Assembly: GCA_946406925.1 (NCBI GenBank) | Contig: CAMJMF010000003.1 | Coordinates: forward strand, 1-42,923 | DNA: 42,923 nt | From: an uncultured Spirochaetales bacterium | Lineage (GTDB): Bacteria > Spirochaetota > Spirochaetia > Treponematales > Treponemataceae | Reading direction: 5' to 3' | In this document: positions 22,384-31,313 of the stretch, piece after piece | How the letters are laid out: every line of letters begins with the position of its first letter | How positions within the stretch are numbered: position 1 is the stretch's first letter | The notes under the pieces: model-generated | Databases searched by the model: none | What the model was told of the DNA's origin: nothing | The model's input: only the letters and a program-made list of their open reading frames with translations | Translations under genes and position numbers: made by a program

Positions 22384-22425
22384 AAAAAAAACACTGAATA
22401 ACCCGCAGACGAATTATTCAGTGTT
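22384..22425 (-). terminator. rho-independent terminator of the EF-G-like gene
   Basis: AACACTGAATAA / TTATTCAGTGTT stem of 12 bp with a 12-nt loop, followed on the minus strand by eight T. Confidence 0.93.
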
Positions 22426-22452
22426 AATCATGAAATCTAATAGCCGAAAAAC

Positions 22453-24543
22453 TTAATCTTCAGACTGATTCATATTGATAAATTCTTTAGAAGCCTTGAT
22501 GACTTCGTCAGCAATCTTACCAGATATAGGATCATAATGGTCGAATGAAGTTTCAAAGCTTCCTGTACCGCTTGTCAGTGAACGCAGGTCAATTGCATAA
22601 CGCAAAAGTTCAGCCTGCGGTGCCTGTGCACGGATTTCTTCGATGCCGCCGCCAATCGGCGTCTGACCCAAGATTCTGCCGCGTTTACCAGACATATCAG
22701 ACATAATGTCGCCCAAGTATTTTGACTCAACCAAAACAGTAATATTCATTATAGGTTCAAGCAGAATCGGGCCGGCATTGCGCATTGCGTCTTTGAAAGC
22801 GTTGCGCGAAGCAATCTTGAATGCCATTTCAGAAGAATCTACAGGGTGTTCCTTTCCGTCAAGAACAGTTACAGCAACATCTACAACAGGATAACCGGCA
22901 AGAACACCGTTTTCCATGGCTTCGTGTACACCTTTCTCAACTCCAGGAATATAGCCTTTTGAAATAGCACCGCCGAAAACAGCATTTGTGAACTTGAAAT
23001 TTTCTCCGCGCGGCAGGCTTTCAATAGAAAGAACAACACGCGCATACTGACCGTGACCGCCAGACTGCTTTTTGTGCGTATATTCAGCCTGTGCTTTTCG
23101 CTGAATAGTTTCGCGGTAAGCAATTCTCGGAACAGCAGTCTGAATATTAATCTTAGTCTGGGTCTGAACTTTCTTGAGCAATATCGAAATATGAAGCTCA
23201 CCCATTCCAGAAAGAACATTCTGCTTTGTTTCAGCGTTATATTTATAAGACAAGGTTCTGTCTTCCTCTGCATAGCGTGCAAGGAATTCGCTCATCTTGT
23301 CTTCTTCTTTTTTGTCGTTAGCAGAAACAGCCATTGAGTATACAGGCTCAGGATGTCTCAAGCGGTTAAACTTCAAGGCATCAGCCGAAGCGGCAAGAGT
23401 GTCACTTGTTTTTGTAATGCTCAGTTTTGTGGCAATACCAATGTCACCGGCATTCAAAGTCTTTACTTCTTCAAGTTTCTTTCCTATACAACGGAAAATC
23501 TTACCAATTTTTTCTTTTCTGCCTTCATTAACATTGAAGACTTCAGTATCAGAAGCCAAAGAACCGGTAACAATCTTGATATAAGAAAGACGTCCAGAAA
23601 ACTGGTCGCTTGAAGTTTTTACAACAAGAGCTGAAAGCGGAAGGTCTCCGCCAATTTTTACAGTTGCATCTGAACCGTCAGCATTTTTTGCTGTTTCAAG
23701 TCTTCCAGCAGGAGACGGAGCAATTTCAGCGATAAAATCGAAAACAGCGGTTAAGCCTGAGTTTTTCAAGCTGTCACCGCAGAAAATCGGAACAATGCGG
23801 TTGTTCTCAAAGGCAATCTTTAAGCCTTTTACAATTTCTTCGTCTGTCAGTTCACCGTCATCAATAAATTTGATAAGCAGGTCATCGTCACCTTCAGCAG
23901 CAGCACCGGCAAGAATACCGCGGGCAGATTCATATGCGTCTTTATATTCAGCTGGAATATCAACAGCTTTTTCGATTGTTCCGTCTGCAGCAAGAGGATA
24001 AGCCTTGCCTTTCAGAACATCGATGACACCGGCAAAGCCTGCGCCGCCGTTCATTGGAATTGTAAGCGGACAAGTCTGTACATTGAATTTGTCGTGTATG
24101 TCTTTGGTAACAGCGGCTACATCAGTGCGCTCGTCATCACAGCGGTTTATAAAAACCATACGCGGCTTAGATCTTCTGTCAAGGTCACGCCACAACTTGA
24201 TTGTCTCAATCTGAGCGCTGGAACGACCGTCAACCAGAACAAGAGCCATCTCGCTTGATCTAAAAGCCGAAATAACTTCACCCACAAAATCAGAAGAACC
24301 CGGTGTGTCCCAAAAATTTATGTTTATATTTTTCCATGAAACATGAGCAAGAGACGAATATATAGAAATTTTATGCTCAATTTCTTCCGGGGTATAATCA
24401 CTTACAGTTTTGCCCGAAACAACTGTTTCCGGCTTTGCGATTACACCACCAACAAAGAGCAGCTGTTCAAACAAAGTTGTTTTTCCTGTCTGACCATGAC
24501 CAGCGATAGCAACATTTCGTACCATTTCCGTAGTAAAATCCAT
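22453..24543 (-). CDS. EF-G-like translational GTPase
   Basis: A 696-residue protein with the full five-domain EF-G layout. G1 is GHGQTGKTT (15-23), G3 is DTPGSSDF (79-86) and G4 is NRCD (133-136); domain IV is present (GGHGQYARVVLSIE, KGYIPGVEKGV) and domain V ends the protein (MSDMSGKRGRILGQ). True EF-G has DTPGHVDF and NKxD; here the catalytic histidine is Ser83 and Lys of G4 is Arg. This is the pattern of the EF-G-II/FusA2-like subfamily, which coexists with a canonical EF-G and whose role (translocation, recycling or stress) is not settled. I therefore do not call it fusA. AGAGGGG lies before the ATG; own promoter and strong terminator. Confidence 0.88.
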   Translation of the reverse strand: MDFTTEMVRNVAIAGHGQTGKTTLFEQLLFVGGVIAKPETVVSGKTVSDYTPEEIEHKISIYSSLAHVSWKNININFWDTPGSSDFVGEVISAFRSSEMALVLVDGRSSAQIETIKLWRDLDRRSKPRMVFINRCDDERTDVAAVTKDIHDKFNVQTCPLTIPMNGGAGFAGVIDVLKGKAYPLAADGTIEKAVDIPAEYKDAYESARGILAGAAAEGDDDLLIKFIDDGELTDEEIVKGLKIAFENNRIVPIFCGDSLKNSGLTAVFDFIAEIAPSPAGRLETAKNADGSDATVKIGGDLPLSALVVKTSSDQFSGRLSYIKIVTGSLASDTEVFNVNEGRKEKIGKIFRCIGKKLEEVKTLNAGDIGIATKLSITKTSDTLAASADALKFNRLRHPEPVYSMAVSANDKKEEDKMSEFLARYAEEDRTLSYKYNAETKQNVLSGMGELHISILLKKVQTQTKINIQTAVPRIAYRETIQRKAQAEYTHKKQSGGHGQYARVVLSIESLPRGENFKFTNAVFGGAISKGYIPGVEKGVHEAMENGVLAGYPVVDVAVTVLDGKEHPVDSSEMAFKIASRNAFKDAMRNAGPILLEPIMNITVLVESKYLGDIMSDMSGKRGRILGQTPIGGGIEEIRAQAPQAELLRYAIDLRSLTSGTGSFETSFDHYDPISGKIADEVIKASKEFINMNQSED

Positions 24544-27676: not shown

Positions 27677-28366
27677 ATGAAACAATACATTTATGAAACA
27701 CATTTACATACATCAGAAGGCAGCGCATGCGGCGTAACAACGGGTGCAGAAGCTGTCAGAGCTTATAAAAAAATCGGGTATTCGGGCATATTTGTTACAG
27801 ACCATTTTTTTAACGGAAACTGCGCCATAAATGACGACCTTTGCTGGAAAGATAAAGTTGAAGCTTTCTGCCTTGGTTATGAACATGCAAAAGAAGAAGC
27901 CGAAGGTTCAGATTTTTCAGTTTTTTTTGGTTTTGAATACAATTTTTCAGGCGACGAATATCTGATTTACGGCATAACAAAGCAATGGCTTATTGCCCAC
28001 CCTGAGATAATGCGCCTGTCTCATTCACAGCTTTTTAAGCTGATTGACAATGCAGGCGGCTTGGTCGTCCAGGCCCATCCATACAGGAAAAGAAGCTACA
28101 TAAAATCAATAAATCTTTACCCTGACGATGTTCATGCTGTGGAAGTCTACAACGCAGCAAACGCGCCTTCTGAAAACGATGAAGCGCTGGAATATGCTGC
28201 CCTGCACAGACTTCCGGGCACAAGCGGTTCTGATATGCACAACGTAAACAACCTGCATTGCCTTGGCGGTGTAGCCTTTGAAGAAAAGCTTGAAACGGTT
28301 CAGGACTATGTTTCAAGAATCAAATCAGGAGTAGGTTTTACACCACTTCCGCCAAAAGCTTATTAA
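27677..28366 (+). CDS. PHP-domain metal-dependent phosphoesterase
   Basis: A 229-residue PHP-fold protein. The metal ligands line up in order: ETHLHTSEGS (HxH near the N-terminus), FVTDHF, FFGFEYNF (Glu), VVQAHPYR (His) and GTSGSDMHN (DxH). PHP proteins hydrolyse phosphoesters, for example histidinol phosphate or nucleotide tails; the substrate here is unknown. The length fits stand-alone members. There is no ribosome-binding site before the ATG, and the predicted transcript start lies only about 6 nt upstream. The stop lies 7 bp from that of the convergent vWA gene, with no terminator between them. Confidence 0.85.
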   Translation: MKQYIYETHLHTSEGSACGVTTGAEAVRAYKKIGYSGIFVTDHFFNGNCAINDDLCWKDKVEAFCLGYEHAKEEAEGSDFSVFFGFEYNFSGDEYLIYGITKQWLIAHPEIMRLSHSQLFKLIDNAGGLVVQAHPYRKRSYIKSINLYPDDVHAVEVYNAANAPSENDEALEYAALHRLPGTSGSDMHNVNNLHCLGGVAFEEKLETVQDYVSRIKSGVGFTPLPPKAY

Positions 28367-28373
28367 CAGCATT

Positions 28374-29684
28374 TCATTTTTCAGGCAGAAGAATTGCTTC
28401 TATCTGAATATTCTTTTCTTTTGAAAGCTGCTCAACAAGTTCTTTTGAATATAATCCGCTTTCTCTTGGAACAGGATGAGGCTGTGCATCGCCGATTAAT
28501 ATGATTTTTTTCTTGTATTCAGTTCCTTCATGCCAGTCAAAAAAAGCAATAGAAGCATATAAGGCTTCATAAACGGCTTCAGGTATATCGCCGCCTTCTC
28601 CGCCGTATATTATGATTCTGTTCAAATTCTGCTGAACTTCATTCCAGTCCGACGTAAACGGGTAAACCCGGACAGGCAGATCTTTATAATTAAAATCACT
28701 GCCGTAGTCTCTGTAAAACACAAGCCCCCATCTGACTTCTGCACCGTCAAAGCGTTTCTTTAATTGAGGAATAAGCTGCTTTTTAAGAAGGCTTATGTCA
28801 TTGCGCATGCTGCCCGTTGCGTCTATCGCAAAAATAACCTCGGCTTTATCTTCAGGTTTAAGATCTTCAAGAGCTGTCTTAATATCAGCTATTAAAGTCT
28901 GCGGCCCTGATGAGTACAAAAGCGGATTAGCAATCTTTTTAAAAGCATCATCAGCTTCTATATTATAGCCGTTACGAAGCAGAGAAACCGGCTCATTTAT
29001 AAGCACAGGCTCCGGCGGTTTCTGTTCGTTTTGAGCAGGCGGCGGAACAACAGCTTCCGGTTCGGGCTCCGGCTCAGGTTCAATTTCCACAACTTCAGTA
29101 ATTTCTTTATAATACTGCCTTACATCAAACAAAAACGGATTATCAACAAAATTGCCTGTATAGTCAGCATATTTTTTCTGAAAAGTCCTTATGTTTATAA
29201 AAGTTCCTGACTCCAGCGTTATAATGTCATTCCTAGTCCATGAATATCCGTATTGAAGTGTTTTCGGAATATATATATGGAAAGCTTCGCCGAAAACAGG
29301 ATGATTTTCTGGCGTTGAATCTATAAGGCTGTATTTTGCACCTTCTGAAACAAGAGGCTTTCCGTCTAAAAGCCTGAGCTCATCACCGTTTATAGGATTA
29401 TATTCCAGAGCACGGTACGCATAATTATTGCTTTTTCCATAAGGGTCTTTCGTTGTCTCACAAAGCAGCACCGACTCAATCTGCGGCTTTTTTCTCACAT
29501 AAAGGTGAAAGCCGGCAACATCACCGCTGAAATCATGCTCCGGCACAAGCTGAATATCATCTGTTGTAATCAGCAGGGGAAGCTGCCAGTCTGCATATTG
29601 CCTGGACTGCCCCTGCTGGGCAAAGACTGAAGTTATAACGCTGAAAAGCATTGAACAGATAATTATTGTTTTATTCAATTTCAT
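28374..29684 (-). CDS. secreted vWA-domain protein
   Basis: A 436-residue exported protein. The signal peptide is MKLNKTIIICSMLFSVITSVFAQ. The first 190 mature residues have no family I recognise (YSWTRNDIITLESGTFINIRTF). A Pro/Glu repeat (EPEPEPEPE, then PPPAQNEQKPPEP) joins them to a C-terminal von Willebrand A domain (about 275-430) with the metal-dependent adhesion motif DATGSM and a GGEGGDIPEA segment. vWA domains bind proteins or matrix through a metal ion, so a surface or periplasmic adhesion or assembly role is likely. No Shine-Dalgarno is seen; a GATAAT box ends 6 nt before the ATG. It lies downstream of the lamin-tail lipoprotein gene, after three hairpins. Confidence 0.83.
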   Translation of the reverse strand: MKLNKTIIICSMLFSVITSVFAQQGQSRQYADWQLPLLITTDDIQLVPEHDFSGDVAGFHLYVRKKPQIESVLLCETTKDPYGKSNNYAYRALEYNPINGDELRLLDGKPLVSEGAKYSLIDSTPENHPVFGEAFHIYIPKTLQYGYSWTRNDIITLESGTFINIRTFQKKYADYTGNFVDNPFLFDVRQYYKEITEVVEIEPEPEPEPEAVVPPPAQNEQKPPEPVLINEPVSLLRNGYNIEADDAFKKIANPLLYSSGPQTLIADIKTALEDLKPEDKAEVIFAIDATGSMRNDISLLKKQLIPQLKKRFDGAEVRWGLVFYRDYGSDFNYKDLPVRVYPFTSDWNEVQQNLNRIIIYGGEGGDIPEAVYEALYASIAFFDWHEGTEYKKKIILIGDAQPHPVPRESGLYSKELVEQLSKEKNIQIEAILLPEK

Positions 29685-29690
29685 CTAAAT

Positions 29691-29718
29691 ATTATCGGAT
29701 TCAACAGCAGTTTCACAA
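29691..29718 (-). promoter_or_regulatory. promoter giving a leaderless vWA mRNA
   Basis: Minus strand TTGTGA, 16-nt spacer, GATAAT, the latter ending 6 nt before the ATG at 29684. There is no ribosome-binding site. Confidence 0.4.
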
Positions 29719-29860
29719 TCTGCAATTTAGTGAAATGCTGATTAATACTTGAGGCATTAATCAGCATTTCACTGCTATTTCTCATAATTCTTTGAATTAT
29801 TACGAAATAGCAAATTTCAAGGTTAACATCGAATAATTCCCATTCGAATTATCCGATGTT
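29705..29860 (-). repeat. three tandem hairpins between lamin-tail and vWA genes
   Basis: In minus-strand order: hairpin III (29860-29825), a 15-bp stem with one G-U and a 6-nt loop starting 1 nt after the stop codon; hairpin II (29811-29774), 8 bp, a small internal loop and 7 bp; hairpin I (29773-29729), a perfect 18-bp stem AGTGAAATGCTGATTAAT with a 9-nt loop. II and III share the inner stem ATAATTC/GAATTAT. A further segment (29716-29705, GTGAAACTGCTG) can pair with one arm of hairpin I instead. No T run follows any of them on the minus strand. Confidence 0.75.
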
Positions 29861-29861
29861 T

Positions 29862-30884
29862 TTAGATTTTATCAGAATTCGGCATGCCGGGCGATGCTGT
29901 GTTTGTTGCCGTTACAAGCCATGAGTTTTTATCTGCCGGCACCGAAAACGACTGGCGCGAAATTGTTCTTGTTGCAGACAGTTTGTCGCCAACGGCAGCA
30001 TCTTGTATAGAAGAACCAGGCCAGACTCCGTTCTTTACAGCACGCTCTAAAGCTTCTTTATAAATCTCTTTCGGCCAGTCCTCAAGCGAAGATTCTGCAA
30101 ACGCTACAGCATCTAAAACAATTCCGTCCGCACTTTTCTCAAGAAGAATGACATCTGTTTTGTCGCCGATTCTTGCGCTTGTGTTTTCAAGCCACAAATC
30201 TCTTGAGGCACTTGAATACGCACCGGCTGAAAGATTCAATTCACTGCCGGTTTCATTTACAAGCCCGGTTTCTATGTTTCTTAAATGAACAACAATATAC
30301 TCGCCTGCGCTGACTTCAACAGCCGGAAAAGTATAGCGCCCTTTTGCGCCGTCTTTTGCTGAGAAAATGCACACACCCGAAAGATTTCCACCGGTTTTTG
30401 CATAGACCTCAACAAATTCAGCTTTCGGGTTGGAATATTTTGTCTGAACTTCACTCAATATAAGTTCCGGCACGTTGTCATTGTAGCCTGTAAACAGAGA
30501 AGCAAAAGTCAAAGAATTATTGTTTGCATCTGTTACAGTTCCGCGCACTATATAAGTGCAGCCTGTTTGCGTCGGTACCAAAAACCGGATTTCAAGTTCT
30601 TTTGAATTGTTTACAGAATATTCAGCATCGACTTTTTCGCTAAAAGAGCACATGAGCGCATTCTCTATCTGAATATTCTCAGCCTTACCTACTTCAAGAG
30701 ACGTGCCTGTAATATTCTCTGAAAAAACCAAAGATATGCATCTTGAACTTTCGCATTTCAAGGTCTGCAGAACAGGTGTGTCAAAATCTCCCGTTAAAAC
30801 ACTCACACTTGAGGGAGAGCCTGAACAGGCACAAAAACATAAAACAAGACAAGCAATAAATGCAGCAGCGTTGATTTTTCTCAA
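29862..30884 (-). CDS. lamin-tail-domain lipoprotein
   Basis: A 340-residue lipoprotein. I start at the TTG with GGAGG 5 nt before it; this gives a compact signal peptide (MRKINAAAFIACLVLCFCAC) with a lipobox-like FCAC, whereas the track start adds 13 residues. Residues about 35-135 resemble a bacterial Ig/SbsA-like beta domain (LKCESSRCISLVFSENITG, TYIVRGTVTDANNNSL). Residues about 145-280 are a lamin-tail domain (PELILSEVQTKYSNPKAEFVEVYA, YIVVHL, VILLEKSADGIVLDAVAF). Bacterial lamin-tail domains are found on surface and extracellular proteins, often with nucleases or adhesins; none is fused here. Its role is unknown. It precedes the vWA gene and is flanked by hairpins on both sides. Confidence 0.8.
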   Translation of the reverse strand: MRKINAAAFIACLVLCFCACSGSPSSVSVLTGDFDTPVLQTLKCESSRCISLVFSENITGTSLEVGKAENIQIENALMCSFSEKVDAEYSVNNSKELEIRFLVPTQTGCTYIVRGTVTDANNNSLTFASLFTGYNDNVPELILSEVQTKYSNPKAEFVEVYAKTGGNLSGVCIFSAKDGAKGRYTFPAVEVSAGEYIVVHLRNIETGLVNETGSELNLSAGAYSSASRDLWLENTSARIGDKTDVILLEKSADGIVLDAVAFAESSLEDWPKEIYKEALERAVKNGVWPGSSIQDAAVGDKLSATRTISRQSFSVPADKNSWLVTATNTASPGMPNSDKI

Positions 30885-30908
30885 AACAGCCTCCAAATAA
30901 TTTTTTAT

Positions 30909-30950
30909 AAAAGCACAGAACAATCCGCACCTGGATTATTCTGTACTTTT
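30909..30950 (-). repeat. 18-bp leader hairpin before the lamin-tail gene
   Basis: Minus-strand AAAAGTACAGAATAATCC pairs with GGATTGTTCTGTGCTTTT over 18 bp with two G-U pairs and a 6-nt loop. It ends in TTTT about 24 nt before the TTG start. The two wobble pairs would be A-C mismatches on the plus-strand RNA. Confidence 0.7.
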
Positions 30951-31313
30951 TGGAAATTGCTGTTTGCCGACAACCCAAAACCTATTCAACAACCGAAGAG
31001 CTTCTAATGGAAAAACCTTAATATCAAGCAGCAATTCCGCATATACTATCTATGCTGGTTTCAATTTTTTTGTACCTGAAACTGCATTTTTTTTTAAATT
31101 TTTTCAATTTTTTTTGCTTTGGCTGCTCTGAAGCCTTTGAACTGCTTCCATCTGTATCAAAAAAACACATTTTTTCAGTCTGAAATAACCGGCGTTTCAT
31201 TTTGACACAATTTGAATAATTCCAATGAGTATGCAGAATTTCGGCTTGGTGCTATTTACTTATATTGCATAATTTTATTTATTTTTGATTTTTTATTTTA
31301 TTTTTATAAATTT

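Follow-up and report, generated by a model that had tools for sequence, protein, structure and literature searches.

Three tandem hairpins between a lamin-tail gene and a vWA-domain gene of an uncultured spirochaete are very probably a MITE-like mobile repeat

Introduction

What are three strong hairpins doing in the gap between two spirochaetal genes that are read in the same direction? The question arises in the window analyzed here, the whole 42,923-nucleotide stretch of contig CAMJMF010000003.1 (assembly GCA_946406925.1) from an uncultured Spirochaetales bacterium, where a tandem array separates an upstream lamin-tail gene (29862..30923, minus strand; its match to the PF00932 domain is weak and falls below the curated cut-off) from a downstream gene with a vWA domain (28374..29684, minus strand). 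An earlier note on this DNA offered two readings, namely that the array could, through RNA processing, govern how much of each of two surface proteins is made relative to the other, or that it could be a mobile palindromic repeat.

Results

The array was folded on both strands, of which the minus strand is the coding strand for both neighbouring genes. On that strand, hairpin A (29825..29860) forms 15 bp including one G-U, starts 1 nt past the lamin-tail stop codon and makes up the left terminal repeat; it was defined by folding and alignment, and relatives show changes on both sides of its pairs. It is followed by a 13-nt spacer, AACCTTGAAATTT (29812..29824), then by hairpin B (29774..29811), folded as 8 + 7 bp with an internal loop, and then by hairpin C (29729..29773), the right terminal repeat, which abuts hairpin B without a gap and has a perfect stem of 18 bp (20 in the fold). 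The spacer resembles AACTTTGAAAATG of T2 and AACTTTAGTAAATC of T1, two repeat families described below. Folding confirms the stems of 15, 8+7 and 18 bp that the earlier note had placed at these positions, and the inner stem ATAATTC/GAATTAT that it had seen in two of the hairpins is present. The additional segment GTGAAACTGCTG, described there as a substitute for one arm of the first hairpin, does resemble the hairpin C arm but lies outside the element.

The fold energy of the array is -69.3 kcal/mol on the minus strand (z -10.9) and -56.9 kcal/mol on the plus strand (z -8.1), both relative to dinucleotide shuffles. All other uninterrupted Watson-Crick stems (loop up to 12) in 824 kb of the organism's own genome are shorter than this 18-bp one, and the array region ranks third among 27,266 segments of 180 nt for composition-corrected stability. 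Because of the fold z-scores, the stability rank and the longest stem, the hairpins are not a product of chance. In Rfam 15, the window gave sub-threshold matches only and none at the gathering score; no repeat was matched in the seven loci searched, and the T1, T2 and T4 families are absent from Rfam.

The whole element, delimited by a covariance model and BLAST, is a 131-bp unit of three hairpins (29731..29861, minus strand; the left border is uncertain by about 2 bases) that belongs to its own subfamily, T4. Its full-length BLAST relatives are 73-82% identical to it, and the 20 full-length T4 copies collected come almost entirely from another genus in the same bacterial family. Within that family, T4-type matches occurred in 33 of the 274 genomes searched, mostly of genus g4, and some genomes hold several copies (three in G236, three in G101 and three identical ones at different sites in G157). 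No T4 copy was found in seven congeners, nor a second full copy in the organism's own 85%-complete assembly. The search for further copies that the earlier note had proposed was therefore negative for T4 elsewhere in the own assembly but positive for many other genomes, with sister families abundant in the own genome, so that other copies do exist at the family level.

A T4 covariance model built on 11 copies from other genomes, with the window copy left out, matched positions 29864-29730 of the window at 132.6 bits. In the organism's other sequence (1.08 Mb), its sole match was one T2 element at 38 bits. The model also gave weaker matches on the window, at 17-48 bits and some of them to single hairpins; E-values from this search are rough, the calibration having been short. 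The link from the window element to T4 is thus firm, and that to the sister families weak.

Stem pairing is kept in T4. In seven T4 sequences, 98.3% of cells were paired and 13 of the 50 pairs had changed on both sides; these values were reached by none of 500 shuffles and were lost when the partners were slid. In the outer stem of hairpin B, pairing was kept in relatives at all four varying base-pair positions. Such conservation is expected anyway of palindromic terminal repeats. The minus-strand-specific G-U pairing emphasized in the earlier note did not hold up, since the G-U is private to the window copy and six relatives have A-U at that pair; strand-specific pairing is accordingly not a family trait. 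Counts of G-U against A-C mismatches, in which related copies are counted repeatedly, were 21:11 for T1, 5:8 for T2 and 39:11 for T4, an excess of G-U in T1 and T4 but not in T2.

The terminal inverted repeats of T4 are GGGAAACACTGAATAAT on the left and GGGAACCGCTGATTAAT on the right and have drifted in the window copy. Elsewhere, T4 copies adjoin unrelated genes; no vWA match was found in the T4 loci of other genomes, and T4 had no match in phage records. At one site shared by two g4-type genomes (L270 and L251), a T4-like element is present, and in L270 longer GGGGCTGTCTCAAAAGT.. repeats take the place of its hairpin A, as though elements exchange or nest their ends.

Two hairpins of similar sequence also lie in the window, and they are the only two such in 1.12 Mb of the organism's sequence. 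One, at 22387-22433, is a solo hairpin (AACACTGAATAA..TTATTCAGTGTT, then TAATCATGAAATCTAAT) that resembles T4 hairpin A plus spacer and scores 30 bits with the model; on the minus strand a U run closes it directly after the gene at 22453-24543, and it may be a piece of a repeat that now serves as a terminator. The other, CAGAACAATCC..GGATTATTCTG at 30905-30955, lies in the 5' region of the lamin-tail gene.

Other top-ranking stability segments of the own genome included three-hairpin arrays of the same design. A pattern scan for hairpin, AAC(C/T)TT spacer, hairpin and hairpin recovered the window array and two repeat families, T1 (start GACGTGTTCGGAAACT, end AGTTTTCGAACAGGTC) and T2 (start GGGAACCTCTAAAAACTTC, end GTTTTTAGAGATGCC). 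All three share one layout, in which hairpin A is followed by a spacer beginning AAC(C/T)TT, a two-part hairpin B and an abutting hairpin C, and in which the terminal inverted repeats (for T1, GACGTGTTCGGAAACT / GACCTGTTCGAAAACT) are hairpins A and C, themselves palindromes. The own genome holds about 23 copies each of T1 and T2, some cut by contig ends, or about 46 in the 2.9-Mb assembly; G006 has many, and G002 and G003 have fewer. The short palindrome of T2 hairpin A occurs up to 44 times in genomes from other families of the order, and T2 had no match in plasmid records. Orientation relative to genes is balanced (15:13 for T1 and 11:9 for T2). By crude gene calls, no T1 or T2 copy lies inside a gene, and many start only a few bases from a stop codon. 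The own genome also contains a further repeated hairpin family, CGGCGAAAAGTGTCTGTTTTTGC...GCAAAAACAGACAGCTTGTGTACA (L139 about 7100, L128 about 12350 and L122 6261), and, at L132 7971-8230, a tandem array of roughly 43-nt units (CGGCAACAAACCTTATGATAAGGTT..) with a very strong fold.

T1 and T2 are mobile. In 19 of 36 T2 copies, 4 flanking bases are identical on the left and right (the right set one base out) where 2.5 copies would be expected, and in 15 of 42 T1 copies 3 bases are identical where 4.5 would be expected; for both families the identity lies beyond all 20,000 shuffles. In the case of T4, a 4-base match of the form YTAR (CTAG, CTAA, TTAA) was found in 9 of 20 copies vs. 3.3 expected (P = 0.0005), a count in which the window copy was scored as a non-match owing to the offset from its drifted left end; the T4 target duplication is statistically weaker than those of T1 and T2. 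A plain TA duplication was considered for T4 and scored below the 4-bp YTAR.

Orthologous sites show insertion. Locus L330 of G006 contains a T2 element, whereas at the orthologous L175 of the own genome the sequence continues uninterrupted, with a single TAAAT. Conversely, L186 of the own genome contains T1, and the corresponding sites in G002 (L195) and G006 (L335) are empty. T2 elements occupy the same gap in L316 (own genome) and L332 (G006), but their insertion points are 7 bp apart and their duplications differ (ACAA vs. TTAA), which makes the two insertions independent. At three further pairs of sites (L176/L130, L301/L272 and L317/L331), one genome has a full element and the other a single hairpin, as would be expected if recombination or slippage occurred between hairpins A and C. 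Empty sites in relatives are present for T1 and T2; none was found for T4, nor, with the vWA gene present, for the window copy.

At the array itself, two CTAA tetranucleotides (29865-29862 and 29730-29727, minus strand) bracket the 131 bp, and the TAA of the left one is the lamin-tail stop codon. The lamin-tail gene ends in ATC TAA followed by AAACATCGG, which aligns to T4 GGAAACACTG assuming the loss of two G's; the right end of the element reads ...CATTTCA|CTAAATTG. Because an alternative alignment that does without the two-base deletion shifts the left border by two bases, the CTAA pair is a probable, unproven target-site duplication, and for the left and the right CTAA alike the YTAR flanks of other T4 copies point the same way.

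The gene neighbourhood differs in congeners. In G006 and G002 the lamin-tail gene directly meets a convergent PHP-type gene, and no vWA gene separates the two; G003 and G005 show the same more loosely. None of the seven congeners has the vWA gene or its gap, and no good vWA homologue was found in them, the only hit being a vWA-domain match in G004 (E 2e-8). Close relatives thus show no conservation at this site, and because gene and gap are both absent from them, the array is not a conserved regulator between the lamin-tail and vWA genes. Homologues of the vWA gene elsewhere (45-53% identity) usually point away from a divergent neighbour of about 360 codons, and no comparable hairpins were found upstream of them in the other loci examined; the idea that the hairpins travel with the vWA gene was rejected on this ground. 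TGAAA(c)TGCTGTT(g)AAT, a short repeat similar to the hairpin C arm (shuffle P 0.0005-0.009), is found on either side of the vWA gene. One copy, TGAAACTGCTGTTGAAT (29699..29715, minus strand), lies outside the element, and the other, TGAAATGCTGTTAAT (28362..28376, minus strand), overlaps the vWA stop codon and has a 16-nt gapped match to the arm. These repeats are possibly a trace of the arrival of the vWA gene via a flanking repeat.

No autonomous partner with matching ends was found using the Pfam families Y1_Tnp, DDE_3, DUF772, DDE_Tnp_1 and DDE_Tnp_1_4 and searches for unpaired terminal repeats. No transposase adjoins a half-repeat at L342:2416. An IS1182-like insertion sequence is present in 18 copies (L281-L299) in genome G045, flanked by 4-bp target duplications, TAGG and TAAA among them. 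Its ends, TAGGGCTTCCTGAAAAAC, resemble T2-like ends, GGGCACCTCTAAAAAC, by eye, and the 4-bp duplications are a second point in common, but neither the own genome nor the T4-holding genomes contain its DUF772 domain. On the likeness of the ends, this insertion sequence is a possible parent type, offered as a lead only.

Discussion

Membership in T4, an architecture common with T1 and T2 and the mobility of those two families lead us to consider it highly likely that these hairpins form a small non-autonomous mobile element of the MITE-like, interspersed palindromic kind, as opposed to a control device that evolved for these two genes. Of the two readings in the earlier note, the mobile palindromic repeat is upheld: the families are multi-copy, they have terminal inverted repeats and target duplications, and some of their sites are empty in relatives. 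The vWA gene would have arrived in the lineage first, and the repeat would then have landed between it and the lamin-tail gene. The site before insertion would have read from the lamin-tail stop into ATTGCAGATTGTG..., with one CTAA and no hairpins; the copy probably inserted at a CTAA present where the lamin-tail gene ends, which was thereby duplicated. The transposase presumably acted in trans and has either since been lost or lies outside the families searched.

The hairpins might instead be a cis-acting RNA element of a lamin-tail/vWA transcript, setting the protein ratio by processing or 3'-end protection. A very stable fold that is stronger on the coding strand, an array that begins at a stop codon, stems that covary in relatives and the known action of other mobile repeats on mRNA would all suit this, but the gap and the vWA gene are absent in all congeners, other vWA genes lack such hairpins upstream, T4 copies elsewhere sit beside unrelated genes, the sister families show no preferred orientation, and the G-U that favours the minus strand is a private change. 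We consider such an element improbable, and the proposal that RNA processing sets the balance between two surface proteins is unsupported as an origin or a conserved role. An incidental effect, co-opted later, is plausible by analogy: ERIC insertions at gene 3' ends alter mRNA decay (PMC10969869), and Correia elements are bound or cut by RNase III (PMC2649163). Any effect of the array on lamin-tail or vWA mRNA, such as 3'-end protection or RNase III cleavage, would be a by-product of insertion.

It is very unlikely that the array is an intrinsic or tandem terminator between the genes, or a plus-strand block to read-through from the PHP-type gene. The stems are stable, and GTTTTTAGATTTTAT comes after hairpin A on the plus strand, but that stem has an A-C mismatch and the T-rich tail belongs to the lamin-tail gene and not to the element. 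No U run follows any of the three hairpins on the minus strand, and a terminator scan made no call there, in agreement with the earlier view that this is no ordinary terminator. Intergenic imperfect palindromes in many copies also call to mind REP elements moved by a RAYT/Y1 transposase, or integron attC sites, yet we find either hardly credible. T1 and T2 have terminal inverted repeats with 3-4 bp duplications, features that to our knowledge are foreign to REPs, and Y1_Tnp was not found in the own genome (G000), G002 or G006, incomplete genomes with many T1/T2 copies. The attC site of an integron cassette lies 3' of the cassette gene, whereas this array sits on the 5' side of the vWA gene and begins 1 nt past the lamin-tail stop; integrons themselves are known from Treponema (PMC3607928).

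As a mobile repeat, the element finds its nearest analogue in layout in the BOX elements of Streptococcus pneumoniae (PMC3049150), which are likewise modular, multi-copy, strongly folded and intergenic, with terminal repeats, target duplications and solo modules. The comparison is one of layout and not of sequence, and the spirochaetal repeats differ in having three separate abutting hairpins, palindromic ends and three diverged families with one layout. Bacterial MITEs (PMC10969869) are similarly short and non-coding, with terminal inverted repeats, short target duplications, many dispersed copies, AT-rich intergenic sites and stable stem-loop transcripts, although for T1, T2 and T4 no parent insertion sequence was found among the five transposase families. 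Correia repeat enclosed elements of Neisseria (PMC2649163) share a length of about 100-155 bp, inverted repeats, strain-specific insertions and intergenic RNA hairpins, but duplicate TA (or CA) where T1 and T2 duplicate 3-4 bp. No earlier description of such repeats in Treponema was found in the open-access literature; the kind is known, being MITE-like, and the T1, T2 and T4 families are apparently undescribed.

More tentatively, T1, T2 and T4 might form one superfamily across Treponemataceae and other spirochaetes that keeps the three-hairpin fold and not the sequence. Stems would be replaced compensatorily or swapped while the order of hairpin A, spacer AACYTT, two-part hairpin B and abutting hairpin C stays, because some machinery recognises or copies the folded strand (ssDNA or RNA). 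We hold this to be doubtful as it stands.

The work raises the question of which transposase moves the repeats and why their shape persists while their sequence changes. A striking intergenic structure is resolved here as mobile DNA and not a gene-specific regulator, where annotators of spirochaete genomes would otherwise continue to read such repeats as regulatory RNAs, and the T1, T2 and T4 repeats provide markers, ready for use, of insertion differences among species.
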